Positions 29,517-51,324 of a DNA stretch of 64,000 nt are shown here, piece by piece. Where the stretch lies: NCBI GenBank assembly GCA_913052445.1, contig CAJXDP010000002.1:1-64000 (forward strand). The letters are read 5' to 3'. The DNA comes from an uncultured Formosa sp. Lineage in GTDB: Bacteria; Bacteroidota; Bacteroidia; Flavobacteriales; Flavobacteriaceae. The translations under genes and the position numbers were made by a program. The first letter of the stretch is position 1, and each line of letters opens with the position of its first letter. Below the pieces are notes generated by a model. That model was given only the letters and a program-made list of their open reading frames with translations. It was not told the DNA's origin and ran no database searches.

Positions 29517-31034
29517 CTAGTCTATTAAGTCGTTCGAATTAATTTCAGAAAGCGGAATTGGTAGTTGCATTACTTGAGCTGGGTCGGTGCTTAATTGTAT
29601 ATCTACATTAGCAGAGAAAATTGGATTATTGTTATGTTTATTTATTGTATGAGTTAAAAAATAATCAAATCCTCGTCTTCTATTATTGTGTGCGTCTTCA
29701 CCCTCTCCTAAAACTTCAAATCGATATTCATTCATAATAGCATCTCTAAATGTAGCTTGATCTCCAAGATATGCGTCATTTGACATTCCTACACGATCTA
29801 ACACTTCAGTAATAAATCCTAATTGTTGTCCATTTTGGAGTTCATTAGAAATCTCAGCCAGCATAATAAGAAGCTCAGCATAACGATAAATAATTACATT
29901 TTGATCTCCAAATTGATTGTTATGAGTTGGATCTTTTTCAGTAAACTTAAATAAAAATGGATGAGCCTTAGGAAAAGTAGCTCTATTTGCAAAAGCAGGG
30001 TATACTTTAACTGGACCTCCAGTATCCGCTCTTACATAATCATAAAGGTATGTTCCTATAAGTCTAGGGTCATCTGGATAGGTTGATTGATGGTCTAGGA
30101 ATACATCTGCACTCACTCGTAACCAACCAAAATGATTACCTAATTTATACTTCCATGGAGTATAATTCCTACCCATTTGAGAATTTGCAGCTTGTTGACT
30201 AACTTGTAGTTCGAAAATTGATTCAGAAGAGTTCTCAAATTCATCAGTAAACAAAGAACTATAATCTGATACTAAACTATATTGACCGTAGGCAATATTA
30301 GCTTGGTCATAGGCCATCTGCCAGTAATCGCTTTCAGTCATACCATCCGCTTGTAAATCAGGATTTGTAGCTAGTGTCATATAGACTTTAGCTAACAACA
30401 TATTAGAAGCAAACTTTTTCGGATAACCCGCGCCAAAAGACCCATTCATAAGGCTTGTAGCTGTTTGCGCATCCTCTATGATTTGTGCGTAAACTTCTTT
30501 TGCACTTGATTTGGCTTTACTTAAGTTATCACTATCTGGAAGCGTTAACCATAATGGAATATCTCCCCAAAGACGAACCAAAGAAAAATAAGACCAAGCC
30601 CTTACAAAATAGGATTGCCCGGAAATATCATTAAAACGTAATTCTGTATCGCTAGTCGTTGACTCAAAAGTTGTTATATTATTGATAGCTCCGTTACACC
30701 TCCCAATTACAGAATAGATCCCTCGCCACGTATTTTCTGAATCTCTGTCATAAGCTGGCTTTAAAGAGAATAAATTCTGATTGTTTACATTGTTGATATT
30801 ATTTCCTTGCTTTCCTGTAGTAAAGAATCCTGAAAAACCATTAATTGCGAAAATACGTTGCTCCATTGAGTTATAAGTTGTCAATCCTTGATAAATTCCA
30901 TCTAAAGCCCCAGAAGCAATTGATATATCGCTATAGGTAGCGGAAGGATCAAGAAATATTGGGTCTTCATCAATGTCACAAGAATAAACTAATGTCGCTA
31001 TAATTGTTAATAATATAATTTTAAAATTTTTCAT
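29517..31034 (-). CDS. susD-like: SusD-like surface glycan-binding lipoprotein
   Basis: Residues 1-18 are a leader ending VYSC, so Cys19 is lipidated and the protein should face outward on the outer membrane. The RagB/SusD fold is recognisable: YSDISIASGALDGIYQGL near 34-51, GQSYFVRAWSYFSLVRLWGDIPLWL near 139-163, YRYAELLIMLAEISNEL near 385-401 and EYRFEVLGEGEDAHNNRRRG near 430-449. Length 505. It follows the SusC gene by 54 bases. It should deliver xylan fragments to SusC. It is the only SusD in the window, so this pair serves the whole locus. Confidence 0.96.
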   Translation of the reverse strand: MKNFKIILLTIIATLVYSCDIDEDPIFLDPSATYSDISIASGALDGIYQGLTTYNSMEQRIFAINGFSGFFTTGKQGNNINNVNNQNLFSLKPAYDRDSENTWRGIYSVIGRCNGAINNITTFESTTSDTELRFNDISGQSYFVRAWSYFSLVRLWGDIPLWLTLPDSDNLSKAKSSAKEVYAQIIEDAQTATSLMNGSFGAGYPKKFASNMLLAKVYMTLATNPDLQADGMTESDYWQMAYDQANIAYGQYSLVSDYSSLFTDEFENSSESIFELQVSQQAANSQMGRNYTPWKYKLGNHFGWLRVSADVFLDHQSTYPDDPRLIGTYLYDYVRADTGGPVKVYPAFANRATFPKAHPFLFKFTEKDPTHNNQFGDQNVIIYRYAELLIMLAEISNELQNGQQLGFITEVLDRVGMSNDAYLGDQATFRDAIMNEYRFEVLGEGEDAHNNRRRGFDYFLTHTINKHNNNPIFSANVDIQLSTDPAQVMQLPIPLSEINSNDLID

Positions 31035-31088
31035 AATTTATAAATTTAATAATATATAATTGTTTTTAATACTTCTGATGTTTGTAAT

Positions 31089-34000: not shown

Positions 34001-34277
34001 AAACTGTTGTATTTATTGAAACATTTACTTCTTCAGTTAAATAACCAACATAAGAAAGCACTATAATTTGTTTAGCTTCAGAAGGAATTGAAATTTTAAA
34101 AACTCCGTCAAAGTTAGTAACAGCGCCTAGATTGTTGGTATCCTTTACTTGAATCGTAACCCCAGGAAGCGGCAAACCTAACTCATCATTAACAGTACCG
34201 CTAACTGTTTTTGATTGTGAAAACGCGATTAAAGGAGTTAAAACCGAAAAAATAATTAATCGAAGAATGATTTTCAT
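31089..34277 (-). CDS. susC-like: SusC-like TonB-dependent oligosaccharide importer
   Basis: An outer-membrane receptor of 1062 residues. Leader at 1-20, a CarboxypepD_reg-like domain at about 23-108 (VSGTVNDELGLPLPGVTIQV), then the SusC signature LDEVVVIGYGTVLKKDISGS and a plug domain with IRGTNSLRGNNEPLYVIDGV and SATAIYGSRGANGVVMITTK. The remainder is the beta-barrel, ending in an aromatic residue (GVNMSF) as outer-membrane proteins do. No STN domain is present, so it does not look like a sigma-factor transducer. It is divergent from the hybrid regulator at 34576, which probably controls it. Confidence 0.97.
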   Translation of the reverse strand: MKIILRLIIFSVLTPLIAFSQSKTVSGTVNDELGLPLPGVTIQVKDTNNLGAVTNFDGVFKISIPSEAKQIIVLSYVGYLTEEVNVSINTTVLVNLQVDTDQLDEVVVIGYGTVLKKDISGSLSTVIVEDEVAIQSSTIDQLLQGRAAGVQVIQNAGSPGSGISVKIRGTNSLRGNNEPLYVIDGVIISSAGEDVLSIGLGNGGQETQNGLNGINPRDIESIQVLKDASATAIYGSRGANGVVMITTKKGKNGKVKVSAFLTSSVRSINNKYNVLDGFGYANYVNEIRENNGFANPRYLVDGPTIYSLANGVQSTDPVEIFNWQDEVYVNGVSQKFGASASGGSDNGNYYISAGFDDQEGVVKNSSFKSSDIRINLNQKLNDNLQLKARMSGFLSTNDFVQGGDRIGNSNRSFVNQAVAFRPLLANDDIPEEQFQTNPYAWTNDFSDFSKASRYIGSLSLTYKLPIKGLSYESKFGGNIRSKDRRRWFGLTTFVGNDTGGQLTKSTLNSKSYQFNNLIRYNRRFNRKHRINALFGITYDARKVATSTYGVEDFITTQFSIEQPAFGQVIRRPLTLFKSDQQIFSILGRLNYTYDNKYILTGTIRRDGVSKFSDGNKYGVFPSFALAWNAGNESFVQNLDLFESLKFRGGWGQIGNHGIGPYGTISNYGVLTSLYGNADGGTNIPVALLGLSNPDLTWETTEQLNFGVDFSTSNDVLSGTIDVYNKTTKDLLQNSNIPPSSGFLNILVNKGSISNKGVEVALNFMPISTDDMELSFGGNISFNKTEILDLTPQPLQGFYENGTVTDRRFYFGNVISRGQYFKSIANVFVEGEESSLFYGYQTDGIYQTEDTDLVQGAVPGDVRITDQLTEDTDGDGILDSGDGVIDLKDRTFIGNPNPDFVYGFNINFKYKRFTVRALFNGVYGNEIANGNLLQLDNAEGLAFRNVLPRAYNNAWRPDNQSNTHPRIGYNTINDLAITDRIIEDGSYLRLRNLTIRYDIPVKDSSLFNSLKIFITGQNLFTWTNYSGYDPELSTFNFTGLINGVDFNGAPNARNFLLGVNMSF

Positions 34278-34575: not shown

Positions 34576-37500
34576 ATGACCTTTCAAAGCCTTTACAAGA
34601 CCATACCAATTACGATCATTTTTATTTCAAATATGATTTTTGGGCAAAGTTATACTGATAACTTAAAATTTAAACCCATCGCTGAAAACGTGAGCCAAAG
34701 GGCGATTACATCTATTGTGAAGGATAAACAAGGGATAGTATGGATTGGAACAAAAGGTGATGGTATATACTCATTTAATGGGCTTGATTTAAAAAACTAT
34801 AGACACGAGTGGGGCAATAAAAAAACTCTGAATAATTCTAGTGTGAATACTGTTTATTTAGATTCAAAGAACAACCTTTGGGTTGGTACAGATGAAGGTC
34901 TAAATTTATACCTTAGAGAGTTAGATCAATTTAGTCCCATTAAACTTGACGATTTAAATTCCAAACATCTAGTTCAAGCTGTTGGAGAAAGTGAAGAGAA
35001 AACACTACTAATAGGAACCCATGGATCTGGCGTATTTGAGTTAAATACTAGCAGTCAAAAAGCTGAAGCTGTAAAAATAACAGCCTATAATAATATAAAT
35101 AAACTTCAAATAAACGATATAAAAACAACGCCTAGAGGGGCTATTTTGTTTGGATCAAACATTGGTTTATTAAAGTATAATTCTTCAAATCACGAATTAG
35201 ACTATGCGAAATTCACAACTTTAAATCAGTCTAGAACAATTAAAACTCCTATAGAATCCATACTAACTAAATTGGATGGAAGTATTTGGCTTGGAACTAC
35301 TGATGAAGGCTTAATTCAGGTATCAACAAGTCCAATTAACTATTTTGAATTTAAAATCTTTAACATAACAGACAAACGAATATTATCCTTAGAAACAGAC
35401 AGAGATGGGTCAATTTTTTGTGGAACAGAAAACGATGGACTCATAATAATAGATAATAAAGGAAAAGTCAAATCGTTTGAGTTTAATAAGTCAAATATCA
35501 ATGGAATAAAATCCAACTCAATATGGTCCATCTTTGTTGACGATGAAAGCAGAATTTGGGTGGGCTATTTTAACCAAGGTGTAGATATTTATGATAAGGA
35601 GGATGAACGATTTAAATCTATTGAAAGTATTCCAAATAAAGATCAATCCTTATTCTCTAAATCTGTAACAAGTATTACTCAGGATAAAAAAGGACGATTC
35701 TGGATCGGAATTTCTGATGGTGGAGTTGATGTATACGATCCTATAAAGGAAACTTTTACTCATTTATTAGATCAAAATAATAAAATAGCCAAAGGACTTA
35801 CAAGTAGTGATGTAGTGAGCGTATTCATTGATAGCTACCAAAATACATGGGTAGGAACATGGAATTCTGGGCTGTTTTTACTTAAAAATGGGTCTAATGA
35901 ATTTGAGAACATCCAGGTTAAAAATAGTAATAATATTCTCAAATCTAATCGTATAATGAGTTTTTCAGAAGATTCTAAAGGATATATTTGGATTGGTAGT
36001 TTTTTAACAGGATTGTACTCTTATGATCTAAAGTCTGGAATTTTAAAACACTATCAGTCTAAAGCCTATGAATCGTTGTTCTTAAACTCTAAAAATATTA
36101 GAAAAGTTATTGTAGACCGCCAAGATAATCTTTGGATAGGGACTAGAAGCGGGTTGTATAAAATTGAAAAACCTGATTCAGAGACTCCAAAAATAACACC
36201 CTATAGTTCGATCATAAACAACACAAAAGAAAGTAGAATTAGAGGTGATTTATCAACCACAATTACTGAAGACAATCAAAATAACATCTGGATTGGTACA
36301 GATGGGGATGGCTTATGTAAATTAAATCCCATAAACCAAGAATTTAAATGGTTCGATACTTCAGAAAATTTTATCCATCAATCGGTAAAGTCCATTATTC
36401 AAACAGAAGAAGGTGAAATATGGGTTGCAGGAAATAATGGAATTTCAAAGTTTAATTCAGATGAGAATAAATTTATTAATTATAATACCCAAGATGGATT
36501 GATTACAAATAATTTCAATAAAAACTCTAGCTATCTTTCAGAAGATGGAATCTTGTATTTTGGATGTTACAAGGGGATAAATTATTTTGATCCTAAAGCA
36601 ATTACTACAGATCCCACACCACCAATTGTATATTTAACAGATTTTAAAATTTCAAATCAAAGCATCATTCCTTCTGAAGTTGATTCACCACTAAAAAAAG
36701 TTATTAATGAAACTACAATAATTGAACTAGATCATAACCAAAACATGTTTACAATTGACTATTTTGGATTGGGATATACTCGTTCAAAAAATATTGAATA
36801 TGCTTACTTTTTAGAAGGGTTTGAAACAGACTGGAATTATGTAAAAAAAACAAGGAAAGCAACATATACAAACATCCCTGCTGGAAACTATAATTTCAAG
36901 GTTAAAGCTGTAAATTCAGATGGGATTTGGAATGAAACACCAACAGTGCTAAAAATAAAAGTACTCGTTCCTTGGTGGAAGACTAACATAGCAATATTTA
37001 TATTTTTGGTAATCATACTAAGTATTACAATGATAGTTTATAGGTTCCTAAATGTCCGAATTATGGAACGCCTGCAAATAAAAAACGAACGTGAGGAACG
37101 AGCTCAAGATGAGGCCCTAAATGCGAAAAAAATTCAATTTTTCACTAATATTTCTCATGAGTTTAGAACGCCTTTAACCCTTATCCTAAACCCTCTTGAG
37201 GCCATCATAGAAGACAAATCAATAAAGCTGCCTAATGATGTCGCAGAGAAGCATGAAACTATTTATAAAAACTCGAAGAGACTTTCACGGTTAATCGACG
37301 AATTAATGGATTTTAGAAAACTTCAATTTAACAAAATGGCTATTAATGCTTCAAGATTTGAAATCGTAGCGTTTGTAAAGGAGGTGGCAAGTCATTTTGA
37401 AGAAGAAGCCGTTCAACGAGATATAATACTTTCGGTTGAAAGCAATGAAGAAAATATATCCATATGGGCAGACCCATCTATGCTTGAAAAGATAATATTT

Positions 37501-38712
37501 AATCTATTGTCCAATGCATTTAAAGCGACTAAAGACAATGGTATAGTTTCTATTAAAATTCAGATTCCTTTACAACCGATTAATTTTCCATTGTTAAGTG
37601 ATGATGAAGATCAATATGGAATCGAAATTAGTATACTTGATAGTGGAATAGGGATTGACAAAAAAGATTTAGAACATATTTTCACTAGATTTTATCAATC
37701 AAACGAAATGGACAAGCAATATTATGGAGGAACTGGAATCGGCCTGGAAGTGGTTAAAAGTTTCATTGACCTTCATAAAGGAACCATTCGAGTTAGTAGT
37801 GAACAAAAAAAGGGAACTGAATTTAAGATACTACTTCCTTTGGGAAGTAATCACCTAAATATATCAAAGAACAATTCTGACTCTAAAACAAATTATGACA
37901 TCTACGAACAGATCATGAGCTCTGAAGTTGATTTGGAAATTAAAAATGAAAAATCAAATAAGAAAACTATACTAATTGTAGAAGATAATTCTGAGTTACG
38001 TAACTATTTAAAAAATGAACTCAAAGAGAATTATAAAATAAAAACAGCTATTAATGGAAAAGAAGGGCTTCAAATGGCAATTAAATTCATACCTGACTTA
38101 GTCATATCTGACGTTATGATGCCAATAATGGATGGATTTGAAATGTGTAGCAACATAAAAAAAGACTTAAGAATAAGCCACATCCCACTACTAATGCTCA
38201 CAGCTAAAGGAATGCAAATAGATCGAGTTAAAGGAATTGATTCTGGAGCAGATGTATATTTAAACAAACCCTTTAACATGAATGTTCTTAAATCTCACTT
38301 AAGTCAACTTATTAATAGTCGTCAAATACTGTTTAATAAATATTATAATGGAGTTAGTCATAAAGAATTAATGAATACAACATCACTTGATAAGCAGTTT
38401 ATAACAAATATTCTAAAATACATTCATGAAAACATAAGTAATCCCATATTGAATGTAGAAAACCTCGCCGATGAATTACTAATAAGCAGAAGTAAGCTTT
38501 ACAGGAAAATTAAAGCTCTTACTGGAAACACTGCTAATGAATTTATTAAAAAAATAAGACTCGAAAAAGCAAAACAGTTTTTAGAAAATAGTGATTATTC
38601 TATAAGTGAGATAAGTTTCAAAGTTGGCTTTTCATCCCCTTCATACTTTACAAAGTGTTATAAAATATATTTTGGAAACTTACCTACAGAAATAAGGTTA
38701 AAAGACAACTAA
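34576..38712 (+). CDS. Hybrid two-component system regulator (HTCS)
   Basis: One-protein signalling system of 1378 residues. Residues 1-23 are a leader or first membrane segment. About 40-715 are two-component-regulator propeller repeats (many [IV]W[IV]G[TS] strands), about 725-795 a Y_Y_Y domain, and about 804-826 a membrane span. The histidine kinase has phospho-acceptor His861 (NISHEFRTPL) and the ATP lid GGTGIGL from 1051. A receiver domain has Asp1179 (ISDVMMP), and an AraC-type helix-turn-helix fills about 1275-1375. It should bind a xylan fragment in the periplasm and activate the locus. It is the only regulator inside the locus and is divergent from SusC. Confidence 0.97.
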   Translation: MTFQSLYKTIPITIIFISNMIFGQSYTDNLKFKPIAENVSQRAITSIVKDKQGIVWIGTKGDGIYSFNGLDLKNYRHEWGNKKTLNNSSVNTVYLDSKNNLWVGTDEGLNLYLRELDQFSPIKLDDLNSKHLVQAVGESEEKTLLIGTHGSGVFELNTSSQKAEAVKITAYNNINKLQINDIKTTPRGAILFGSNIGLLKYNSSNHELDYAKFTTLNQSRTIKTPIESILTKLDGSIWLGTTDEGLIQVSTSPINYFEFKIFNITDKRILSLETDRDGSIFCGTENDGLIIIDNKGKVKSFEFNKSNINGIKSNSIWSIFVDDESRIWVGYFNQGVDIYDKEDERFKSIESIPNKDQSLFSKSVTSITQDKKGRFWIGISDGGVDVYDPIKETFTHLLDQNNKIAKGLTSSDVVSVFIDSYQNTWVGTWNSGLFLLKNGSNEFENIQVKNSNNILKSNRIMSFSEDSKGYIWIGSFLTGLYSYDLKSGILKHYQSKAYESLFLNSKNIRKVIVDRQDNLWIGTRSGLYKIEKPDSETPKITPYSSIINNTKESRIRGDLSTTITEDNQNNIWIGTDGDGLCKLNPINQEFKWFDTSENFIHQSVKSIIQTEEGEIWVAGNNGISKFNSDENKFINYNTQDGLITNNFNKNSSYLSEDGILYFGCYKGINYFDPKAITTDPTPPIVYLTDFKISNQSIIPSEVDSPLKKVINETTIIELDHNQNMFTIDYFGLGYTRSKNIEYAYFLEGFETDWNYVKKTRKATYTNIPAGNYNFKVKAVNSDGIWNETPTVLKIKVLVPWWKTNIAIFIFLVIILSITMIVYRFLNVRIMERLQIKNEREERAQDEALNAKKIQFFTNISHEFRTPLTLILNPLEAIIEDKSIKLPNDVAEKHETIYKNSKRLSRLIDELMDFRKLQFNKMAINASRFEIVAFVKEVASHFEEEAVQRDIILSVESNEENISIWADPSMLEKIIFNLLSNAFKATKDNGIVSIKIQIPLQPINFPLLSDDEDQYGIEISILDSGIGIDKKDLEHIFTRFYQSNEMDKQYYGGTGIGLEVVKSFIDLHKGTIRVSSEQKKGTEFKILLPLGSNHLNISKNNSDSKTNYDIYEQIMSSEVDLEIKNEKSNKKTILIVEDNSELRNYLKNELKENYKIKTAINGKEGLQMAIKFIPDLVISDVMMPIMDGFEMCSNIKKDLRISHIPLLMLTAKGMQIDRVKGIDSGADVYLNKPFNMNVLKSHLSQLINSRQILFNKYYNGVSHKELMNTTSLDKQFITNILKYIHENISNPILNVENLADELLISRSKLYRKIKALTGNTANEFIKKIRLEKAKQFLENSDYSISEISFKVGFSSPSYFTKCYKIYFGNLPTEIRLKDN

Positions 38713-39133: not shown

Positions 39134-39988
39134 TTAATATTGATTGTTGATTGTTGATTTTCCCTTCAGAAAGTTTAAAGAAACTAGAAATTTATCAATT
39201 TCATCGGTTGTTTCTATGAAATATTTAATTGGTTTCTTAGCAAAAAATGCATGGGCTTGGTCTTTATAAAGTACAAGGTCGCATCGACTTCCTACAGCCT
39301 CCATTTTTTGTTTGAAGGATTGTACCATTTCTACAGTCACAATACGGTCTTTAGTACCTACCAATATAATTGATGGTGGTGCTCCTGCTACAATATTATC
39401 CGTAGGAGATAAGTCTATATAACGGCCTCCAAAACGTTTATGTGCATAAGCACCCGGACCTAAGTCAATAACAGGGTTTAATAATATTAGAGCATTAGGG
39501 ATTGAGCTTATATTTAAGTCCTCTTCTATATTATCAAATTTAGGTAATAAGGCACAAGAGGCAGCTAAATGGCCGCCTGCGGAACCACCGCCAGCAGTAA
39601 TTGTATTAGGATCTATATTTAGTTCGTTTGCGTGTTGCCTTACAAATCGGATAGCCGACTTAGCATCTTCAGTGGCTTGAAATGGGGTTGTTCCATGGGT
39701 GTTTTTTAATCGATATTCTACTGAAATGGCAATCATACCTCTAGAAGCAAAATACATGGACTGTCTTCTAAAAGCTCTTGGACTGCCATTATTCCAACCT
39801 CCTCCGTGAAAAAACACTACACAATTATAGACTTTAGAGGGTTTGAAGTCTAGAGGTTTATAAATGTGTAAATTAAGAACTGTAGTATCTATTGTTTTAT
39901 AAACCTGAAATTCAGGCTCAATAATAATAGGCGTTTGAGAATACCCATTAAGCCATATCAGTAAAAATAAGAATAATGCTGTTCTCAT
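39134..39988 (-). CDS. Exported alpha/beta-hydrolase esterase (HSL-like)
   Basis: Leader at 1-17. The oxyanion-hole motif HGGGW is at 61-65, nucleophile Ser136 is in GGGSAGG, and the triad is completed by Asp214 (GTKDRIV) and His246 (DQAHAFF). At 284 residues it is a single domain of the hormone-sensitive-lipase-like type found in many polysaccharide loci, where relatives remove acetyl or other acyl groups. In this setting deacetylation of xylose units is plausible. It lies 96 bases after the sulfatase at 40085. A TAAATTTG element on the minus strand (40000-39993) may give it an extra promoter. Confidence 0.88.
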   Translation of the reverse strand: MRTALFLFLLIWLNGYSQTPIIIEPEFQVYKTIDTTVLNLHIYKPLDFKPSKVYNCVVFFHGGGWNNGSPRAFRRQSMYFASRGMIAISVEYRLKNTHGTTPFQATEDAKSAIRFVRQHANELNIDPNTITAGGGSAGGHLAASCALLPKFDNIEEDLNISSIPNALILLNPVIDLGPGAYAHKRFGGRYIDLSPTDNIVAGAPPSIILVGTKDRIVTVEMVQSFKQKMEAVGSRCDLVLYKDQAHAFFAKKPIKYFIETTDEIDKFLVSLNFLKGKSTINNQY

Positions 39989-40084: not shown

Positions 40085-41698
40085 TTATCGTTTGTTAATA
40101 TTCTCTTCATTATAAACTCGTTCAATTACAATATCTGTCATTGCACGCATTTCTTCAAGAGTCATGTCATCTTTATACTCAACTTGTAATTCCTTAATTT
40201 TATTTTTTAATTTTTGAGTTAATTTTTTAGTTCCTGATGTACCGTATAGGTTCTCCATTTCGTTTGGATCCTTTTTTAAATCAAACAACTCCCATTCGTC
40301 CATGTTATAATAGTAATGAATCAACTTATAACGATCGGTTCTAACACCATAGTGTGGCTGAACATTATGCCATTTTGGGAATTCATAATAATGATAATAA
40401 ACCGCATCTCGAGTAGTTACTTTTTTATTAGATTCTAATAAGGGTTTAAAGCTTGTTCCCTGCATTTCATCAGGAACATCAATGCCAGCTAAGTCAAGTA
40501 AAGTCGGTGCGAAATCAATATTTAGTAATAAATCTGAATTCACAGATTTCGGCTTTATGAGTTCAGGATAGCGAATCATGAACGGCATTTTAAACGATTC
40601 TTCATACATCCATCGTTTGTCAAACCAACCATGTTCACCCAAGTAAAATCCTTGATCAGAAGTGTATATAATGACTGTATTATCAAGTAAATCATTAGCT
40701 TTAAGATAATCTAACATCTGCCCTACCGCTTTATCAACTCCTGCAACACATCGTAAATAATCCTTGATATAAGCTTGATACTTCCAGTTTTTCAAATCAG
40801 CTCCTTTAAGCGTATCGTTAGGAGTCCAAAAATCTCCTTTATTTCCATAAGAGTAGTACCCCTTAAGCTCTTTTTTTGAGAGCCCTTTTGGCGGAGCCAC
40901 TTTTAAATCTCTTCGATTCATATGGTTTTCTATTTCCATCCATTGCTCACTCGCAGCTTTACGGCCTTTGTAGTCGTCATTAAAGTTTGCAGGGTGTGGA
41001 AGGTCTCCATCAGAGAATAAATCTTTAAATTCCTCTGCTGGTTCCCATGGTCGGTGGGGTGCTTTAAATTGATACATCAACATAAACGGTTTGTCTTTAT
41101 CTCGCCCCTCGCCTATCCACTTCATGGCATCATGTGCAACTTGGGCGGTTGAATGTCGTTTTTTTTCTACAATGGTATCCCGACCATTTTCTAAAAATAC
41201 GGGGTTGAAATAAGTTCCTTGCCCTCCCCAATTTATCATTACTTTAGAATAATCAAATCCTGTAGGACTGGTTCCTAAATGCCATTTCCCAACAACGGCT
41301 GTCTGGTAACCAGATTTTTGAAATAATTTTGGAAATGTCATTTGACTCCCATCAAAATCGCCACCTTTTTCATTTTTAAAAAAGCCACTTACATGACTGT
41401 ATTTTCCAGTTAAAATCGCCGCACGGCTTGGTCCACATATAGAATTGGTATTAAACATTCTTGTCATTAACATCCCTTCGTTAGCAATCCGATCGATATT
41501 TGGAGTGGGTGCAATTTCTGCTAACCAGTCCCGATAAGCACTAATTGCACTAACAGCATGATCATCCGCCATAATAAAAACAATATTAGGTTGCTTTGGA
41601 TTCGTATTAACAACCACAGATGGTTTAGAAGTTTTACAAGCTAATGTTGTAATAGCTAAGAGTGATAGGCCAAAAAAGAGGTTTTTTGTGATAGTCAT
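40085..41698 (-). CDS. Type I sulfatase lipoprotein, N-acetylglucosamine-6-sulfatase-like
   Basis: Leader ending AITTLAC, with Cys21 the likely lipidation site. Asp45-Asp46 are metal ligands and Cys88 in C-G-P-S-R is the formylglycine site. YTSDQGFYLGEHGWFDKRWMYEES near 345-368 continues the active site. It is a clear paralogue of the sulfatase at 1714, sharing AISAY, APTPNIDRIANEG, CGPSRAAILTGKYSH and the YYHYYEFPKWHNVQPHYGVR tail. The 1714 copy has a plain leader, so the two probably sit in different places. Length 537. Genes on either side follow in one direction (8 bases upstream). Confidence 0.94.
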   Translation of the reverse strand: MTITKNLFFGLSLLAITTLACKTSKPSVVVNTNPKQPNIVFIMADDHAVSAISAYRDWLAEIAPTPNIDRIANEGMLMTRMFNTNSICGPSRAAILTGKYSHVSGFFKNEKGGDFDGSQMTFPKLFQKSGYQTAVVGKWHLGTSPTGFDYSKVMINWGGQGTYFNPVFLENGRDTIVEKKRHSTAQVAHDAMKWIGEGRDKDKPFMLMYQFKAPHRPWEPAEEFKDLFSDGDLPHPANFNDDYKGRKAASEQWMEIENHMNRRDLKVAPPKGLSKKELKGYYSYGNKGDFWTPNDTLKGADLKNWKYQAYIKDYLRCVAGVDKAVGQMLDYLKANDLLDNTVIIYTSDQGFYLGEHGWFDKRWMYEESFKMPFMIRYPELIKPKSVNSDLLLNIDFAPTLLDLAGIDVPDEMQGTSFKPLLESNKKVTTRDAVYYHYYEFPKWHNVQPHYGVRTDRYKLIHYYYNMDEWELFDLKKDPNEMENLYGTSGTKKLTQKLKNKIKELQVEYKDDMTLEEMRAMTDIVIERVYNEENINKR

Positions 41699-41706: not shown

Positions 41707-43086
41707 TTAATTAAATGTCGTTTTGAATTGTTCTAATTGTTGACTTAATGCTTTTACAATAGATAAATGCGCAGGGTCATTTGCCAAATTAATAGTTTCG
41801 TTAGGATCCGTTTCGTGGTTGTATAGCATTTTGGAGATAACCTTACCCTTTCTTAGCCACTCGGTATAAAACAAGTGATCAACGATGAGCGTTTCTCCTT
41901 TCTGGTAACGAGCTAACGCTCTATTTTTAAATATTTCATCAGGAGATTCTAGAGCTGAAACTAAAGAACTACCTTGTAAATGAGTAGGCGATTCTCCCGC
42001 TGTAAGTTCACATAGGGTTGGATAAATGTCTACCAACTCGGCAATAGAATTCGTACGAGCTGCTTTCGGTAATCCAGAATAACTTATAATTAAAGGAACT
42101 TGAAGGGCCACTTCAAAGTTGCTGTGTTTCGCCCAAAGACCATGATCGGACAAGCTCCAACCGTGATCTCCTACCAAAACAATGACGGTGTTTTCACGCA
42201 AACCTAGTTCTGTTAAACCTTTTATTAAAACACCGATCTGAGCATCAACATAACTCACACTGGCATAATAACCATGAATTAATTTTTTAGCTATAGGGTC
42301 GGGAACGGGACCATTTTTTGGTATGTTTATATATGCCCGTAATTCACCCCATTTATGATTTGCTCTTTGTGGTGCGGATTTTGGAAACGTAGCGTTTTCA
42401 GGAAGGTTAATCGAGTTTGGGTCGTATAAATCCCAATACTTTTTAGGTGCATTAAAAGGAAGGTGAGGTTTAACAAACCCAACTGCTAAAAAAAATGGTT
42501 TCCCCTTCGCTTTAAACTGTTTTAAATCTTCTATGGATTTAAGCGCTGTTTGTCCATCTATGTAGGCCGCGTCCGGGACGTCTATATTTTCATAAGCATA
42601 GCCAGCTTTATTGGATGCTTCAAGAATTAAATTTTCTTTTGAAAGATAATTACGCCATGTTTTTACTTTAGGATACCATTCATCATCCCAAGCATCAATA
42701 TCATTTTTAATGTGAGTTATTTTGTTGTTACTAACTGTAGAATAACCACGATCTTTAAAGTATTGAGCCATATTAACAACTTCTGGCATATCTTCTTTGA
42801 TACGGCTATGATAAGTTAAAAAACGATTTGCTGTAGGACGAACTCCCGTTAAAAGACTTGCTCTAGAAGCCCCACAAACAGGCACGTTGCAATAGGCGCG
42901 ATTAAAAGTTACTCCAGAAGCACCTAGTGAATCAATATTGGGGCTTAAGATTTGATTTTGGCCATATAAACTGAGTTCGGGACGTAAATCATCTACCATG
43001 ATGAATAAAACGTTTTTAGGCTGAGTTTGATTTTGTGAACTTACTGTAAAAGAAAGAAGTACAAAAAATATTATAAATTGTTTCAT
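41707..43086 (-). CDS. Type I sulfatase, iduronate-2-sulfatase-like (C-G-A-S-R)
   Basis: Leader at 1-18. Asp32-Asp33 (MVDDLRPELSLYG) begin the metal site, Cys71 is in C-G-A-S-R, and VGDHGWSLSDHGLWAKHSNFE near 312-332 completes it. VGFVKPHLPFNAPKKYWDLYD near 207-227 is typical of the branch. It is close in sequence to the sulfatases at 21062 and 27834. It starts directly after the GH3 stop (no intervening base), so expression with GH3 is very likely. Length 459. Confidence 0.94.
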   Translation of the reverse strand: MKQFIIFFVLLSFTVSSQNQTQPKNVLFIMVDDLRPELSLYGQNQILSPNIDSLGASGVTFNRAYCNVPVCGASRASLLTGVRPTANRFLTYHSRIKEDMPEVVNMAQYFKDRGYSTVSNNKITHIKNDIDAWDDEWYPKVKTWRNYLSKENLILEASNKAGYAYENIDVPDAAYIDGQTALKSIEDLKQFKAKGKPFFLAVGFVKPHLPFNAPKKYWDLYDPNSINLPENATFPKSAPQRANHKWGELRAYINIPKNGPVPDPIAKKLIHGYYASVSYVDAQIGVLIKGLTELGLRENTVIVLVGDHGWSLSDHGLWAKHSNFEVALQVPLIISYSGLPKAARTNSIAELVDIYPTLCELTAGESPTHLQGSSLVSALESPDEIFKNRALARYQKGETLIVDHLFYTEWLRKGKVISKMLYNHETDPNETINLANDPAHLSIVKALSQQLEQFKTTFN

Positions 43087-45423
43087 TTATTCTTCGATTT
43101 TTATTCGATTATTAACAGTTAACTCTATTGATTTTAGATCTCTATCTGCTGATGATTTTCCAACCATAATTGAAAAAGTTCCTGGCTCTACACAATAATC
43201 CATATTGATGTCATAAAACGCCAACATTCGTTCATCAATTTCAAACGATACTATTTTGGAAGATCCCTTAGTCAGAAATACTCTCTCATAGCCTTTTAAT
43301 TCTTTCACAGGACGCGTTGCACTGCTTACTTTATCCCTGATGTAAAGCTGCACGATTTCTTCTCCGTCCATCTCTCCAGTGTTCTCAAGCTCGAAACTAA
43401 GAGTAACTGATTTCCCTTTCTCGAGCTCGTTGCTTGAAAGACTTGGGTTAGAATACTTATACTTGGTATAACTTAAGCCAAAGCCAAATGGATATAAAGG
43501 CTTCTTTTTTTCTAAGGCATACTTATGAAAATACGCGGATGGCTTATGGTTGTAAATCATGCGTAATTGTCCAACACTACGGGCCACTGTAAGTGGTAAT
43601 TTACCACTAGGATTCACATCTCCAAAAAGAACATCGGCAACCGCTTCTCCTCCAAACAATCCTGGTTCCCAGGACTCAATAATCGCTGGAACGTTTTTTT
43701 GTAACCATGGTTCTGAGATTGGTCGACCGTTAACCAATACAATAATAACAGGCGTACCTGTATTTTCAATCGCTTGAACTAATTCCAGCTGTTTTCCTGG
43801 AAGATCCAAAGCTGAACGAGCCATATTTTCTCCTGCTGTTTTATCTTTCCATCGATAACGCATTGAATTATCCCCTACCACTACTACGACATAATCCACA
43901 TCGTTAGCTAAAAGTGCAGCTGCTTTAATTTTAGCATCTTTAATTTTCCGAATATTTTCGCCTGAATCAAAAAAGCTAACCTCATAGCCTTTTTCAGACC
44001 CTAAATCTTGTATACCTTCAAATATTGTAATGACATTTTCATCGGGTTGTTTAGCATGCCAATCGCCTAATATTGTTTGGTTATTTGCATTGGGGCCTGT
44101 AACTAAAATTCGCTTATTATTTGATGTATTAGCTAACGGAAGTATTCCATTATTTTTTAAAAGAACAATTCCCTTTTGGGCACTTTCTAAAGCTGTTTTT
44201 TTGTGTGCATCTATTAATACATGATTTTTAATAGACTCTAGTTTGACAGTTCGATTTTCAAATAAGCCTAGCTTAAACTTGGCCATTAATATTTTAGAAC
44301 AAGCATCGTTAATACGGTCTACAGAAAGTGTTCCCTCATTAACAAGTTCTACAACTGCTTCTGGAAATTTTACGCCGTGCATATGCATATCCATTCCTGC
44401 ATTTACAGATAAGTAAGATGCTTCTTTTAAATCATTTGCAACATGGTGAAGGGTTTCGATTCGTTCAATATCCATCCAATCACTCACATAAAACCCTTTA
44501 AATCCCCATTGGTTTCTGAATAAATCAGTCATTAACCAAGAATTCATATGGCAAGGTACGCCGTTAAGTTCATTATGAGCCGCCATTATTGAATAGACTC
44601 CAGCATCAATAGCTTTCTGATACGGTTTAAGATGCACTTCCTTTAAAGTACGCAGCGATACATCCATTGGTGCAGCGTTAAGACCATTTACTGGCTCACC
44701 TCCAGCAATCATGTGCTTTGCACAAGCAATAACTTTTTCTGGTCCTGAAAAATCACCTTGTTGGAAGCCATTAATCATCGCAGCCCCCATATTTCCGACC
44801 ATATAGGGATCTTCACCAAACGTCTCTCCCACGCGACCCCATCTAGGATCACGAAGCACATCAATATTAGGAGTAAATGCCCAATGCGATCCAGTAGCTC
44901 TCATTTCTTTAGCAGATTGTTTTCCAACATCATATAAAAATGAATCTGACCAAGTAGAGGCTAATGTTATTGGAGAAGGGTACACTGTTGTTCCTGAAAC
45001 CAGAGCATTTCCATGAATTGCATCTATACCAATTAAAATTGGTATCTTAAGTGGTGACTGAAGAGCAAGTTCCTGTAAAAGGTTAGCCTCTTCTGTCGTT
45101 AATACATGAAGAAAAGAACCGATTTTACCCTCTTTAGTCATTTGAGCAACATCGTCACTGAACAATCCTTTATAGAAACCCTGAGCATCGTTAGAATGCA
45201 ATTCCTCTTCTGTTAGATTTTTTTCAGCTTGACGCATGTGATCTAGACCTACAAACTGATTCATCTGATAAACCTTTTCCTCTAGAGTCATTCGACTCAT
45301 AAGGTCGTCTAGACGTACTTCATAAGTTAGATTGGCATCAAGGTATATAGGGGTATTGGATTGAGAAAACCCAACACTTGTCATAAGAATTGTCGAAAAA
45401 GATAGTAAATTTAATAACTTCAT
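43087..45423 (-). CDS. GH3 beta-xylosidase/beta-glucosidase
   Basis: A retaining exo-glycosidase of 778 residues with leader 1-20. The N-terminal barrel has IGIDAIHGNALV near 131-142, DPRWGRVGETFGEDP near 192-206 and nucleophile Asp315 in FYVSDWMDIE. The second domain follows from about 400 (SAQKGIVLLKNNGILPL), and a fibronectin-III-like domain closes the protein (about 680-770, PFGFGLSYTKY before it). It should remove xylose (or glucose) from non-reducing ends in the periplasm. It starts two bases after the sulfatase-GH10 fusion gene. Xylose specificity is inferred from the locus. Confidence 0.94.
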   Translation of the reverse strand: MKLLNLLSFSTILMTSVGFSQSNTPIYLDANLTYEVRLDDLMSRMTLEEKVYQMNQFVGLDHMRQAEKNLTEEELHSNDAQGFYKGLFSDDVAQMTKEGKIGSFLHVLTTEEANLLQELALQSPLKIPILIGIDAIHGNALVSGTTVYPSPITLASTWSDSFLYDVGKQSAKEMRATGSHWAFTPNIDVLRDPRWGRVGETFGEDPYMVGNMGAAMINGFQQGDFSGPEKVIACAKHMIAGGEPVNGLNAAPMDVSLRTLKEVHLKPYQKAIDAGVYSIMAAHNELNGVPCHMNSWLMTDLFRNQWGFKGFYVSDWMDIERIETLHHVANDLKEASYLSVNAGMDMHMHGVKFPEAVVELVNEGTLSVDRINDACSKILMAKFKLGLFENRTVKLESIKNHVLIDAHKKTALESAQKGIVLLKNNGILPLANTSNNKRILVTGPNANNQTILGDWHAKQPDENVITIFEGIQDLGSEKGYEVSFFDSGENIRKIKDAKIKAAALLANDVDYVVVVVGDNSMRYRWKDKTAGENMARSALDLPGKQLELVQAIENTGTPVIIVLVNGRPISEPWLQKNVPAIIESWEPGLFGGEAVADVLFGDVNPSGKLPLTVARSVGQLRMIYNHKPSAYFHKYALEKKKPLYPFGFGLSYTKYKYSNPSLSSNELEKGKSVTLSFELENTGEMDGEEIVQLYIRDKVSSATRPVKELKGYERVFLTKGSSKIVSFEIDERMLAFYDINMDYCVEPGTFSIMVGKSSADRDLKSIELTVNNRIKIEE

Positions 45424-45425: not shown

Positions 45426-48002
45426 TTAATTTTTTAATGCGTTTTTAATAATTCGATAAGCTGGTGTTGGATTTAAATCAGCGTCATAAATAGATTGGAA
45501 ATAACCTCTGTTCTTTTTAAAGCGCTCTCCCATGTCCCATAGATTTAATGCTACAACTCCAGTTGCTGTCTTTGATTCTAGAAGAGAAACTATTTTTGAA
45601 TACAACACTGCCTGTAATTGGTGTTGTTTCATAATGTCTGATTTATCTTTTATCATATAGTCTAGTTCTGTGATATGGAATTCTAAATCATTAGTATGAG
45701 CCCAGTCTACCAATTCTGAAAGTTTTTTTAGAGTGTTATCTGTATCTTCAATAAAATCTTTAGTGGAACTACTTAAATTAATATGTCCTTGCCAACCAAT
45801 TGCGTCGACACGAAGTCCTTTAGAGCGTATGTATAAAATAGTTTCCTTGACCTTGTCCCACATGATTGGCTGCATTCCTGCATTATGATTGTATACAAGT
45901 TTAATATTAGTTGCATGCTTGGTAGCAATTTCAAATGACTTTAAAATATAATTTGGGAATCCATTAGGGTCTAAGCCCATTTTAAGCCACGGGTTTTCCC
46001 ACAAAGAAGTTCCTTTTTTGGGCCCAAACCACTTTCCATTTGGTAAAACGGTTTCATTAACAACATCCATCCATTTAATATTTGGGATAGTATTAAAACG
46101 TTTGGCAGTAGCAGTCATAAAATCAACCATTACTGTTTGAAGTTCTTCAGCAGTTCTATTGTCTTCTTTAGCCCATTTTGAAGCTTGAGGACTCGATGGA
46201 CCATGTATTCTGACAATCAAATTATTAGATTTAGAAAAGGCAATGAAATCGTCAATTCTTGTCCAATCCCAAACATTAGGTTTTGGGTGGATTATTGTTT
46301 GCTTAGCAGCGTTGGCAGGCGTTAGATAGTTGAAATCTTTAAGGAATAAGGCCCCTTTTTTAGAGTCCATTTCGTGGTGATTTAAAGTAGCTCCAATAAT
46401 TAATTTAGAAGTATTTAGCGGGACCTTTTCTGTTTTAATGGTTTCTATTAATTGATTCTTAAAATATCTTGCTGCTAACTTTTGAAATCGAGTTTTATAG
46501 ATCGCATAGTTTTCATCGTCAATTCTATTGTAGGTTTCATCAGGATCAAATTTATAATCGTATAGCTCTTCAGCATAAATATCTTTTTGAAAAATTGGAT
46601 CTGTACTTTTTTTGTTAGTAACCCAAACTGTATATCGGTATTGTTCCGTCCGAAAACTATAACCTGTTTTATTACCACTTTGCCACTGACTTACTGCGTA
46701 CGATTTTGGGGAAATAGCATCGCCTTCCACCAAAGAGTTTAAACTAGTTCCATCAAGGTTCGAGGGAATATTCAAGTTAGCAGCCTCACAAAGTGTAGGG
46801 AAAATATCTACAAATTCAGTTGGAGAAGTGACCTTAACACCCTTTTTTACTTTTGGATTGTATATTATTAATGGAGAACGCGTAGCTTGTTCAAAATTTG
46901 AATGCTTATTCCATAAACTGTGATCTCCTAAGTGCCAGCCATGATCGCCCCATATCACGACAATCGTGTTTTTATCAAACCCAGTTGATTTGAGTGTTTG
47001 TAGTATTTTTCCAATTTGAGCATCGATAAAACTGGTACAGGCATAATACCCGTGAATCAAATCCTTTTGGTGAGATTCCTCTAAATCTAAAAGGTTTTCT
47101 TCATTGATCACATAGTTTATTTCAGGATACTTATAAGAGCGCATTTCACCTGAACTGTGATAGGCTAAATCAGGACCATTAATAGACTTTGTTTGATAAG
47201 AAGCTAACTCAATTTCATTTTTATTATAGAGGTCCCAATATTTTTGAGGAGCTGTAAAAGGAAGATGAGGCCGCTTAAAGCCGACTGCTAAGAAAAAAGG
47301 AGCTGATTGATTTTGACTTAAATTTTGTAACATTAAATTGGCACGAGCAGCGATAGCACCGTCTGTATATGCTTCATCGGGCACATTGGCACTTCCAAAC
47401 GGAGGTTTATAGTTGTCTCTCACATATTTGTTAAGATTTTTAACACCCTTAGAAGTAGCTTCGGCCCTTAGCTGTCTTAACTTATTTTTAATGTCTTTAT
47501 TTTGATAATACCCCAATGCTGGCGGACCATAATCTGAAGAATAGCCGAGTTGGTTTTCTTTTATAAAAGGAACTGACCAAGAAGGTAGATCTCTTTTATT
47601 ATCGACACAGCGGGGATCAAATATTTTTCCAACTCCTAATGTTTGATATCCATTATTCTTAAAGTGTTCTGGAATGGTGAGAATATCTGGATTGATATCT
47701 CGCATTTTAGTTTTAAGATCTCTTACCTTGGTATAATCTGGTCGTTTACCTGTCATTAAACTGGCTCTAGACGGACCGCAGACGGCCTGCTGCGTATGAT
47801 TATTTAAAAAAATAGTTGCTTCTTTAGATAAGTCATCCATTATTGGAGTTTGCGCAAATGCATCCCCAAAACTACCAATGGTAGGCTTTAGGTCATCAAT
47901 TGCTATGAACAAAATGTTAGGATTTTTAGTTTCTGGTTGTGCGAGTAGTGCAAAAGAGAAAAATAGTGCTAAAAAACAAAAAAATAATTTTTTTACTTTC
48001 AT
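45426..48002 (-). CDS. Bifunctional sulfatase-GH10 xylanase fusion
   Basis: An 858-residue exported protein with leader 1-21. Residues 27-515 are a complete sulfatase of the iduronate-2-sulfatase-like branch: Asp36-Asp37, Cys75 in C-G-P-S-R, FKRPHLPFTAPQKYWDLY, Asp353-His354 and Lys366-His367. After a short linker, residues 530-858 are a GH10 barrel with acid/base Glu650 (MDVVNETV), Gln738/His740 (GWQGH) and nucleophile Glu779 (FHITELDYM). The GH10 cleft is altered: the usual TPENxxKW reads TPANAAKQ (561-568) and the WHxQ segment is gone (RIHGPSSPQASKW, 598-610). No second leader or start lies between the domains. It probably desulfates and cuts the same xylan fragment. Confidence 0.93.
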   Translation of the reverse strand: MKVKKLFFCFLALFFSFALLAQPETKNPNILFIAIDDLKPTIGSFGDAFAQTPIMDDLSKEATIFLNNHTQQAVCGPSRASLMTGKRPDYTKVRDLKTKMRDINPDILTIPEHFKNNGYQTLGVGKIFDPRCVDNKRDLPSWSVPFIKENQLGYSSDYGPPALGYYQNKDIKNKLRQLRAEATSKGVKNLNKYVRDNYKPPFGSANVPDEAYTDGAIAARANLMLQNLSQNQSAPFFLAVGFKRPHLPFTAPQKYWDLYNKNEIELASYQTKSINGPDLAYHSSGEMRSYKYPEINYVINEENLLDLEESHQKDLIHGYYACTSFIDAQIGKILQTLKSTGFDKNTIVVIWGDHGWHLGDHSLWNKHSNFEQATRSPLIIYNPKVKKGVKVTSPTEFVDIFPTLCEAANLNIPSNLDGTSLNSLVEGDAISPKSYAVSQWQSGNKTGYSFRTEQYRYTVWVTNKKSTDPIFQKDIYAEELYDYKFDPDETYNRIDDENYAIYKTRFQKLAARYFKNQLIETIKTEKVPLNTSKLIIGATLNHHEMDSKKGALFLKDFNYLTPANAAKQTIIHPKPNVWDWTRIDDFIAFSKSNNLIVRIHGPSSPQASKWAKEDNRTAEELQTVMVDFMTATAKRFNTIPNIKWMDVVNETVLPNGKWFGPKKGTSLWENPWLKMGLDPNGFPNYILKSFEIATKHATNIKLVYNHNAGMQPIMWDKVKETILYIRSKGLRVDAIGWQGHINLSSSTKDFIEDTDNTLKKLSELVDWAHTNDLEFHITELDYMIKDKSDIMKQHQLQAVLYSKIVSLLESKTATGVVALNLWDMGERFKKNRGYFQSIYDADLNPTPAYRIIKNALKN

Positions 48003-48030: not shown

Positions 48031-49980
48031 TTATTTGATAAGTAACTTTTTATAATACGATATACCAAACTTGGTTTCAATTTTTAAAACATAACTTCCA
48101 GCAGCAAATAACTTTACATCTATACGATCATTGTTCATTTGTTCGTGTACCAACTGGCCTAAACTACTAACTATTTTCAAGGAACTTACATTTAAATCTG
48201 TTGAAATAATTACAAAGTTATCTGAAGGGTTTGGAAATAATGTGATTTTGGGTTCAGATTCAAACGAATCAATATCCAAGCTAGAATCTTCAACAGACAC
48301 TGAAAAATCATCAATCAGATACGTACCCTCATTCTCTCCAAACATTAATTGTACCTGTAGCGAGGTAGTGAAATCTGGAACCTCATATGAAAATTCGACT
48401 TGCTCGTAGTTGGCCTCTTCTAAGCTTCCATCATAAAGATATATCACATCAGACGGAGAATAAGTTGTAGTGCCAGAAATATTTGATTTTATTCTTATTT
48501 TGATAGATTGATTTGGACCCAGTGTTTTTACAAAGCCTTGAATGGTAATTGTTTTGCCTGTTAAATCTCCTGTATATATGTTGTTACTTAGCAGGACTTT
48601 ATTATATGTATGAGAGGAAGTAACTTCTACTTTACCACCAGCATTTCCTTCAAATGAATCACTTGAAGCATCAGAATAGTTCGCAGCTGCTAAAGATCCC
48701 TGGACAGAGAAAATCCATTGGTCAGAATATCCACACTCGAAATCAGGATTTAATAATACAGCATCAATATTTGGACCATAACAAAGTGGCCAATTTCCTG
48801 ATTCCAACAGAGCATCTTTAACGTCTGTAACCCAAACTCCTGAAACAGAATTTGAAGTTGAAGGGTTATCCGTCCTTAAATGGATAGTTTTATTGGATTT
48901 ATTACCTGCGCACCAAGCAGAGAATGAAAAACCTCTGTTTATAGCCTGTTCAGCGAGAAATCTATGGTATTCAACACGATCGAGGTTTTCTGGCCCTCCA
49001 TCATCTCCGTCGAGTCCAGTAGAATAATTTATACCATTTGTATTATCAGCACCAAACTCACCTAATGTAACTGGAATATTATTAGCATCAGACCAAGATT
49101 TGACAACATCAAAATGACTAAAAACTGTTGCTTTTTCAGATGTTGACCCCCAATTAAAAACATTATTATTAGACGTAGATGAACTCGTAAAGTTAAATGG
49201 CTGGTAGTAATGAAAAGAAGCTATCAAATACTCATCACTTTGTATAACATCTGAACCAATGGTTGTAGGAGCTTGGTAAGAGTTGAGCGTTCCGCCAGTG
49301 ATAATAATACTTCGCGTACTATTATTACCACCTGTAGATCGTATAGTTGAAATAATGAGTGAGTTTAAAGCATCCATTTCTTCGGCACTTAATTCAAAAT
49401 AAGGCTCGTTTATAACTTCAAAAATCACATACTCTGAATAATCGAGAAATTGGTTTGCTATAGCAGACCAAATCGATTTAAACTTCATTATATCAGCAGC
49501 ACGTTTTTCTGAACTTGGAGCACTATAATTAGACTCACTGCTATTAAAAGTTGTTAGGAACTCAGATTTTAGCTGAGCGCCATGAAAATCTATAACTGTG
49601 TACAAGTCTTGATTAATGGACCAATCTACAATGGTCTTTAACCTGTCAAGATAAGTTTGACTAACTATAAAATCTGAAATAGATCCGTTGTAATTATTGG
49701 CAGTACCTGCTTCAATTGAAAAACTAGTAGTACTACCCGAAGTTCGATTACCAAAAAAATCTACAGGGATTCTAACATTTGAAAAACCTTCGTTTTTAAC
49801 ATCAATAAAAAACTGTTCATAAACTATAGGAGCCCAATTTCCTTCAACAGGTGCGCTCAAAACATTCCCTAAATTTATCCCTCTTCCCATTTCCTCAACT
49901 AACTCATAAGAGCTAACTTGAGACATCATTTTTAATGAAAAAAATAAAAAAAAATAAAAAAAAGCAATTAATCGGTTCAT
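48031..49980 (-). CDS. GH5 endo-glycanase, T9SS-secreted, with CBM-like module
   Basis: I chose the ATG at 49980 because it begins a good leader (MNRLIAFFYFFLFFSLKMMSQ). An upstream in-frame ATG at 50013 would add 11 residues that spoil it. Numbered from 50013, the GH5 barrel covers about 40-375: GRGINLGNVLSAP, acid/base Glu203 in FEVINEPYF and nucleophile Glu319 in VTLGEFGAD. A beta-sandwich at about 395-575 ends YLIDDFSVSV, as CBM4_9-like modules do, and 585-660 is a T9SS sorting domain (LFPNPSDNFVII). It should act outside the cell. GH5 spans cellulases, mannanases and xylanases, so specificity is open. It is the first gene of the series running to 38779. Confidence 0.9.
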   Translation of the reverse strand: MNRLIAFFYFFLFFSLKMMSQVSSYELVEEMGRGINLGNVLSAPVEGNWAPIVYEQFFIDVKNEGFSNVRIPVDFFGNRTSGSTTSFSIEAGTANNYNGSISDFIVSQTYLDRLKTIVDWSINQDLYTVIDFHGAQLKSEFLTTFNSSESNYSAPSSEKRAADIMKFKSIWSAIANQFLDYSEYVIFEVINEPYFELSAEEMDALNSLIISTIRSTGGNNSTRSIIITGGTLNSYQAPTTIGSDVIQSDEYLIASFHYYQPFNFTSSSTSNNNVFNWGSTSEKATVFSHFDVVKSWSDANNIPVTLGEFGADNTNGINYSTGLDGDDGGPENLDRVEYHRFLAEQAINRGFSFSAWCAGNKSNKTIHLRTDNPSTSNSVSGVWVTDVKDALLESGNWPLCYGPNIDAVLLNPDFECGYSDQWIFSVQGSLAAANYSDASSDSFEGNAGGKVEVTSSHTYNKVLLSNNIYTGDLTGKTITIQGFVKTLGPNQSIKIRIKSNISGTTTYSPSDVIYLYDGSLEEANYEQVEFSYEVPDFTTSLQVQLMFGENEGTYLIDDFSVSVEDSSLDIDSFESEPKITLFPNPSDNFVIISTDLNVSSLKIVSSLGQLVHEQMNNDRIDVKLFAAGSYVLKIETKFGISYYKKLLIK

Positions 49981-50090
49981 GATCGTAAAAATATTTAAAA
50001 TACTAGTATGCACAATAACAATTTTGGGTTATTATTCGATACTAATGAAGCACTCAAATGAATAATATGCAATTTAAAAATCAGTATTAT

Positions 50091-50259: not shown

Positions 50260-51324
50260 ATGAGTAAAATTTACCAGAGAATATTGTGCGTTGCTACAGT
50301 TTGTTTATTGTTTAGTTGTAATAATAGAGAGCCAAAAGAGGAGAAAAACAAACTTACAATAGAAGGAATGGTATGGATTCCGGGTGGGGTCTATGAACAA
50401 GGAGCTTCTAAAAACGATAAATTGGCCATACCCCATGAAAAGCCAAAGCATAGTGTTAAGGTTGATGGTTTTTATATGGACATCACAGAAGTCACTAATG
50501 ATCAGTTCTCAAAATTTATTGATGCTACAAATTATATTACTACAGCCGAACAGCCAATAGACTGGGCTCTGATAGCATCTCAATTACCTGCAGGAACTCC
50601 AAAACCGCACGATTCTATACTTCAACCTGGATCTTTATTATTTAAAAAAACAAAAACTAGTGTACCGAATTTATATGATTTTTCGCAGTGGTGGAAATGG
50701 AGTATTGGAGCTAACTGGAAACAACCAAATGGCATAGGTAGTTCAATTATAGGAAAAGAAGATCATCCGGTAGTTCATGTATCATTTCAAGATGCAAAGG
50801 AGTATTGTAAATGGGCTGGACGACGTCTTCCTACAGAAGCAGAATGGGAGTATGCTGCTAGAGGTGGGAAAAAAGATATGATATACTTTTGGGGCAATCT
50901 AGTTGACAACCTCTCATCCAAAGTAAATAGTTGGGAAGGAGAATTTCCTGTTATTAATTCCAAAGCAGATGGTTTTGAAAAAAGTGCACCAGTTAAATCA
51001 TTTCCTCCAAATGATTTTGGTCTTTATGAAGTTTCTGGAAATGTTTGGGAATGGACTAGTGATTGGTACAATATCAATTACTACTCAATTTTAGCATCAC
51101 AGCAGGACATTTCTATCAATCCAAATGGCGCGGAAATTGCTTATAATCCTAACAACCCACTACTTAGCGAAAAAATTATCAAAGGTGGCTCATTTTTATG
51201 TAATTCATCATACTGCGCGAGCTACAGAGTTTCTGCTCGAATGGCTACTGATCCTAACTCGTCACTGGAACATTTAGGTTTTAGAACGGTTTTATCTACA
51301 GATATGATTATTTCAAAGAATTAA
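50260..51324 (+). CDS. Formylglycine-generating enzyme (FGE), lipoprotein
   Basis: Oxidises the active-site Cys of sulfatases to formylglycine, the step each of the eleven sulfatases here requires. Leader 1-19 ends LLFSC, so Cys20 is the likely lipidation site and the enzyme acts after export. MVWIPGGVYEQG near 37-48, WAGRRLPTEAEWEYAARGG near 185-203, SGNVWEWTSDWY near 259-270 and KGGSFLCNSSYC near 308-319 follow the FGE fold. Cys314 and Cys319 keep the spacing of the two catalytic cysteines of true FGEs, which many FGE-domain proteins lack. Length 354. It is transcribed away from the GH5 gene, with its own promoter region, at the edge of the sulfatase locus. Confidence 0.92.
   Translation: MSKIYQRILCVATVCLLFSCNNREPKEEKNKLTIEGMVWIPGGVYEQGASKNDKLAIPHEKPKHSVKVDGFYMDITEVTNDQFSKFIDATNYITTAEQPIDWALIASQLPAGTPKPHDSILQPGSLLFKKTKTSVPNLYDFSQWWKWSIGANWKQPNGIGSSIIGKEDHPVVHVSFQDAKEYCKWAGRRLPTEAEWEYAARGGKKDMIYFWGNLVDNLSSKVNSWEGEFPVINSKADGFEKSAPVKSFPPNDFGLYEVSGNVWEWTSDWYNINYYSILASQQDISINPNGAEIAYNPNNPLLSEKIIKGGSFLCNSSYCASYRVSARMATDPNSSLEHLGFRTVLSTDMIISKN

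Follow-up and report, generated by a model that had tools for sequence, protein, structure and literature searches.

The locus analysed here raises the question of why a marine flavobacterium joins a sulfatase and a family GH10 glycoside hydrolase in a single protein, and what such a protein acts on. The window, i.e., the whole stretch of 64,000 nucleotides from contig CAJXDP010000002.1 of an uncultured Formosa sp., contains the respective fusion gene at 45426..48002 on the minus strand (stop included). An earlier note, made from the sequence letters, had described it as an uninterrupted frame of 858 codons with one leader, and this was borne out: the frame starts with ATG and contains no internal stops, and the probability that a frame of such length arises by chance is about 5e-29 when the bases are modelled as iid. 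The only leader peptide of the whole protein, as judged by eye, comprises residues ~1–22 (47937..48002, ending in FALLAQ) and lacks a lipobox cysteine. It is followed by a sulfatase domain (PF00884, residues 28–409, 46776..47921, 135 bits) with an SGSH_C domain as the C-terminal part of the sulfatase (PF16347, residues 359–505, 46488..46928), by an interdomain linker recognised from the AlphaFold model and homologue comparison (residues 513–530, 46413..46466), and by the GH10 catalytic domain (PF00331, residues 535–854, 45441..46400), which scored 127 bits against a cut-off of 22.1 and covered positions 12–310 of the 311 in the profile. The AlphaFold model was built on 56 homologues and reached a mean pLDDT of 90, with values below 50 for linker residues 520–527; its pTM of 0.64 leaves the arrangement of the two domains uncertain. 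Model residues 26–519 match S1 sulfatases (6hhm, Z 46, 440 residues, rmsd 2.0), and residues 527–858 match GH10 enzymes (Z ~34, ~300 residues). Both halves are complete by profile and by fold, in agreement with the claim of a complete sulfatase fused to a complete GH10 barrel.

The sulfatase half contains Cys75, the formylglycine precursor (47778..47780, minus strand), within the motif C-G-P-S-R (Cys75 to Arg79), as well as Asp36, Asp37, Asp353 and His354, which places it among the S1 formylglycine sulfatases. All catalytic residues named beforehand, including Glu650 and Glu779 of the GH10 half, were found at their positions by alignment. The fused homologues covering the respective sites all keep D36, D37, C75, R79, K126, H246, D353, H354 and K366. 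Among solved structures, the closest is P18_S1_7 of Formosa agariphila, an S1_7 enzyme (6hhm; 34% identity over 440 residues), which is listed as a 2-sulfo-D-xylose sulfatase in ulvan breakdown (PMC9096561), while reviews are at odds on its endo- or exo-action (PMC9096561 vs. PMC8360166). By homology to P18_S1_7, the N-terminal half is a putative xylose-2-sulfate sulfatase. However, the solved chain of P18_S1_7 lacks a GH10 domain, derives from an ulvan locus and carries a His at the position of Asp129. Because Asp129, which is kept in every fused homologue covering the site, replaces a His present in both 6hhm and human iduronate-2-sulfatase, the target of the sulfatase half could differ from that of P18. 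The characterised protein P36 of F. agariphila likewise joins an S1 sulfatase to the following glycosidase of its pathway, but consists of an S1_25 sulfatase and a GH78 rhamnosidase and therefore differs in sulfatase subfamily, glycosidase and sugar, i.e., rhamnose (PMC8511951).

The GH10 half was compared with Cex, whose reference sequence was verified against 1exp. Its membership in GH10 is evident from the PF00331 match over the curated cut-off, the barrel fold and the two catalytic glutamates, Glu650 as acid/base (46053..46055, minus strand; Cex Glu127) and Glu779 as nucleophile (45666..45668, minus strand; Cex Glu233). Both glutamates were kept in all of the 55 fused and separate relatives examined, as were most residues of the −1 subsite. 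The barrel, the glutamates and most −1 residues are also common to the canonical endo-xylanases Cex (2exo), Thermotoga XynB (1vbr) and 3niy, to which the GH10 half shows 19–26% identity. It differs from these enzymes on the glycone side. The Cex positions Glu43, Trp84, His85 and Trp281 determine the form of the glycone subsites −2 and −1 in GH10 enzymes. Trp84 and Trp281 are missing from the fusion and from 55 of 55 relatives, Ser or Gly occupies the position of His85, and Glu43 is replaced by Ala in the fusion (Ala563) and in 47 of the 55 relatives. In contrast, all four residues were kept in 29 of 29 high-scoring GH10 proteins from 196 genomes of the order Flavobacteriales, a set of best-scoring sequences in which low-scoring divergent GH10s are under-represented. 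In addition, an insertion of about 13 residues is present behind the acid/base, with a conserved W-F-G-P-K-x-G-T-x-x-W-E-N-P-W stretch. The position of Cex His80 was read as His in one alignment and as Pro in another. The fusion lacks the Glu43, Trp84 and Trp281 set of canonical GH10 endo-xylanases, and its Pfam score of 127 bits compares with 328 bits for a canonical GH10 protein encoded in the same locus.

The earlier designation as a GH10 xylanase is thus supported for the family, but not for the activity it implies: because Trp84, Trp281 and mostly Glu43 are lost, while 29 of 29 comparison proteins keep them, xylanase activity of the GH10 half cannot be assumed, and activity as a plain xylanase is doubtful. 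From the remodelled glycone-side residues, we infer that the substrate of this half is a decorated sugar or contains a different linkage. The altered glycone side suggests that a xylan chain accepted by this half would be decorated, not plain; given the missing Trp84 and Trp281 and the mostly replaced Glu43, the bond that would be cut need not be located in a xylan chain. In a more far-reaching and tentative reading, which we regard as possible but distinctly short of probable, the GH10 half would be the founder of a GH10 lineage, as yet uncharacterised, whose recognition is directed at the sugar in its sulfated (or otherwise decorated) form. Trp84, Trp281 and Glu43 would have been given up and the Trp-rich insertion acquired to fit the charge, yielding a "sulfoxylanase" physically joined to the sulfatase by which its product is cleared.

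The gene encoding the fusion is followed on the minus strand by genes for a GH3 exo-glycosidase (43087..45423), two sulfatases (41707..43086 and 40085..41698) and a BD-FAE type esterase (39134..39988), as identified by Pfam and synteny. This order is kept in the relatives with contigs long enough (L003, L004 and L012), and recurs without a recognised esterase in three others (L009, L010 and L013), which fits a cascade. On the other side, we found genes for a GH5 protein with a type IX (T9SS) sorting tail (48031..50013, minus strand) and for a member of the formylglycine-generating enzyme family involved in sulfatase maturation, with a lipobox-like leader (50260..51324, plus strand). A SusD and SusC glycan importer pair (29517..34277, minus strand) and a hybrid two-component system regulator (34576..38712, plus strand) are also encoded in the window.

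As described by Krueger et al. 2019 (PMC6794258), putative sulfated-xylan polysaccharide utilisation loci (PULs) show two patterns that are sometimes combined, as is the case here. The first consists of a "sulfatase domain-containing GH10", a GH3 and two sulfatases, and is present at 40085–48002. The second consists of a GH30, three sulfatases, a PL9 with CBM22, a GH10 and a GH43_1, and is mostly present at 14960..27770 (minus strand), where profile matches revealed a GH43, a GPH-type symporter, the canonical GH10 (17463–18605, 328 bits), a beta-helix Pel9A-like protein with a CBM_4_9 module and a T9SS tail (18626–20884) and three sulfatases (21062–25584); the GH30 is represented only by weak GH59/XynC matches of a CBM-containing protein with a T9SS tail (25581–27770). 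The sulfatase-GH10 architecture is therefore not new, having been published as an annotation in 2019, although searches of open-access papers yielded no characterised sulfatase-GH10 protein or biochemical study of the fusion. The 2019 paper names the pattern from annotation only, and its passages on the pattern do not mention the changes on the binding side of the GH10, the link to a xylose isomerase or the history of splitting. A PUL for sulfated beta-xylan was also predicted in Formosa sp. Hel3_A1_48 by Kappelmann et al., who found related SusC/SusD proteins in bloom metaproteomes (PMC6298971), and a xylan PUL was reported for the Aurantivirga MAG AB_MB169 (PMC10108472), the source of one of our fused loci (L042).

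The sugar metabolism genes of the window point to xylose. We found a xylose isomerase gene (9349–10674, minus strand; 661 bits vs. a curated cut-off of 533) and a gene for a xylulokinase-like kinase that scored below its curated cut-off (10671–12167, minus strand). These adjoin a gene for an SSF symporter (7657–12167 in total), which ties the locus to xylose metabolism. A rhamnose pathway, as suggested for 9349–12167 by the kinase family, was ruled out by the identity of the isomerase, and xylose pathway genes were the only monosaccharide pathway genes recognised in the window. Eleven sulfatase genes are located between 167 and 48002, out of 15 PF00884 matches (one being a weak fragment) in the 1.73 Mb genome bin. 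The locus also contains a DUF1501/DUF1800 pair (12284–14871), and the same pair occurs near the fusion in L026, L027 and L042. Behind the locus, at 53767–59136, genes for an M14 peptidase, a phosphate-selective-porin-like protein, an amidohydrolase and a DcuC-type carrier appear unrelated to sugars.

Because the leader lacks a lipobox cysteine and Pfam detected no Por_Secre_tail (type IX sorting domain) in the fusion, unlike in the beta-helix (18626–20884), XynC-like (25581–27770) and GH5 (48031–50013) proteins, the fusion is probably periplasmic and would act on imported oligosaccharides. A sulfated, xylose-containing substrate is likely and represents our best guess, based on the xylose isomerase and kinase in the locus, the set of GH43, canonical GH10 and XynC-like proteins, and P18_S1_7 as the nearest solved sulfatase. 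Taken together, we consider it rather probable, though by no means certain, that the protein belongs to a marine flavobacterial PUL and, as an enzyme of two domains located in the periplasm, processes sulfated xylose-containing oligosaccharides in two steps. According to this proposal, the surface enzymes with type IX tails would cut a sulfated, xylose-containing algal polysaccharide, and the SusC/SusD pair would import the resulting pieces. The N-terminal S1 sulfatase, matured by the formylglycine-generating enzyme, would then cleave off a sulfate ester, for which C2 of xylose is the most likely position. The GH10 domain would presumably act second, using Glu650 and Glu779 in a double-displacement mechanism to hydrolyse a beta-xylosidic bond of this oligosaccharide. 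The GH3, the two sulfatases and the esterase encoded by the next genes may complete the breakdown, and the xylose released would enter metabolism via the isomerase and the xylulokinase-like kinase. The earlier proposal of a sulfated-xylan processing enzyme is retained as far as the sulfated, xylose-containing substrate is concerned, which the xylose isomerase and the homology to P18 make the best guess, but its xylanase part is weakened by the doubtful activity on plain xylan. The same note had taken the fusion to argue directly for sulfate on the xylan itself; this goes too far, because the joining of two domains indicates that their activities come together, but says nothing about the position of the sulfate.

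The strongest competing explanation, which we nevertheless consider unlikely, is that the GH10 half cuts a different beta-linkage, e.g., one between xylose and a different sugar, as would occur in mixed sulfated heteropolysaccharides like glucuronoxylorhamnan or xylomannan. This would agree with the remodelled glycone side and the conserved insertion after the acid/base, and the pectate-lyase-like beta-helix protein, the GH5, the esterase and the 11 sulfatases seem to exceed the requirements of a plain sulfated xylan; moreover, the best-known occurrence of xylose-2-sulfate is in ulvan, beside rhamnose (PMC8511951). However, the recognised monosaccharide pathway of the window is confined to xylose, and neither a rhamnosidase (GH78) nor an unsaturated glucuronyl hydrolase (GH88/GH105) was matched by Pfam in the window. 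Somewhat less plausible still is that the fusion combines a sulfatase with an ordinarily specific endo-xylanase and is secreted to cut sulfated beta-1,4-xylan directly. Although the GH10 score over the cut-off and the two catalytic glutamates agree with such an enzyme, and PMC6794258 presents such loci as "sulfated xylan", the replaced or deleted residues Glu43, Trp84, His85 and Trp281, kept throughout the 29 high-scoring GH10s of the order, argue against it, as do the canonical GH10 already encoded at 17463–18605 and the lack of a sorting tail by which the fusion would reach the polymer.

"Sulfated xylan" is named in PMC6794258 among the main predicted substrates of marine Bacteroidetes in algal blooms, and this prediction leans on GH10 genes. 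Should the GH10 half of the fusion differ from ordinary xylanases, both this label and the carbon-flow picture derived from it need testing. The fusion offers a compact, expressible probe both for the true target polymer of such loci and for whether joining the two enzymes speeds up the cascade.

To find the same two-domain order elsewhere, as the earlier note had proposed, we scanned ~85,000 species genomes as well as 299 from the family Flavobacteriaceae, which yielded 28 further loci with both halves in a single frame, at 52–95% identity where complete. In six of these (L015, L016, L021, L022, L025 and L028), the fusion is cut by a contig end or a break in the frame. L004 and L016 derive from the same genome, where L016 (9998–12388) represents a second copy of the fusion; its frame is interrupted close to the GH10 C-terminus, either in reality or by a sequencing error. 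Compared with the three nearest homologues, dN/dS values were 0.08–0.10 for the sulfatase and 0.09–0.11 for the GH10 half and looser for the linker, which differs among homologues in length and sequence; both halves are under purifying selection. Although the halves are separate genes lying a few bases apart in two Polaribacter genomes (L023 and L024), an assembly or annotation artefact of two adjoining genes deserves practically no credence, being refuted by independent assemblies, in which 28 further loci show a single open frame, and by the purifying selection on both halves.

In the two Polaribacter genomes, the GH10 gene has its own leader and begins directly behind the sulfatase stop, and in single-cell genomes of one clade the GH10 is found on another contig than the sulfatase (L038/L047 and L041/L048), which there (L038 and L041) bears an extension of ~110 residues. 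Such a post-sulfatase extension bridges the sulfatase to the GH10 in some genomes (fused in L026, L027 and L042) and terminates the sulfatase gene in others (separate genes in L023, L024, L030, L032–L036, L038, L040 and L041). It appears helical by eye and gave no Pfam matches in L026 and L030. Other Flavobacteriaceae contain a lone GH10 of the fusion type near a paralogous sulfatase. The sulfatase beside the separate GH10 is a paralogue of 43–47% identity, not a clear orthologue, and falls into a sister paralogue clade in the tree; a strict Rosetta-stone argument from the genomes with separate genes is weakened accordingly. Mapping the fused or separate state onto the trees required at least six changes for the GH10 half, four of them forced by starred branches, and at least five for the sulfatase half, three of them forced. 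The multiple changes on both trees speak against a fusion that arose once and then stayed unaltered, and an old fusion with later splits fits them, with quick trees of this kind not settling the matter. GH10 domains of the fusion type are rare: at E <1e-25, they were matched in four of 395 genomes from across the phylum, and the two of these from outside the family are short, separate frames. In the cultured relative Lutibacter agarilyticus DSM 29150 (L017, 9980–14869), the fusion is followed by two tandem GH10 genes of the same type, one of them long-branched.
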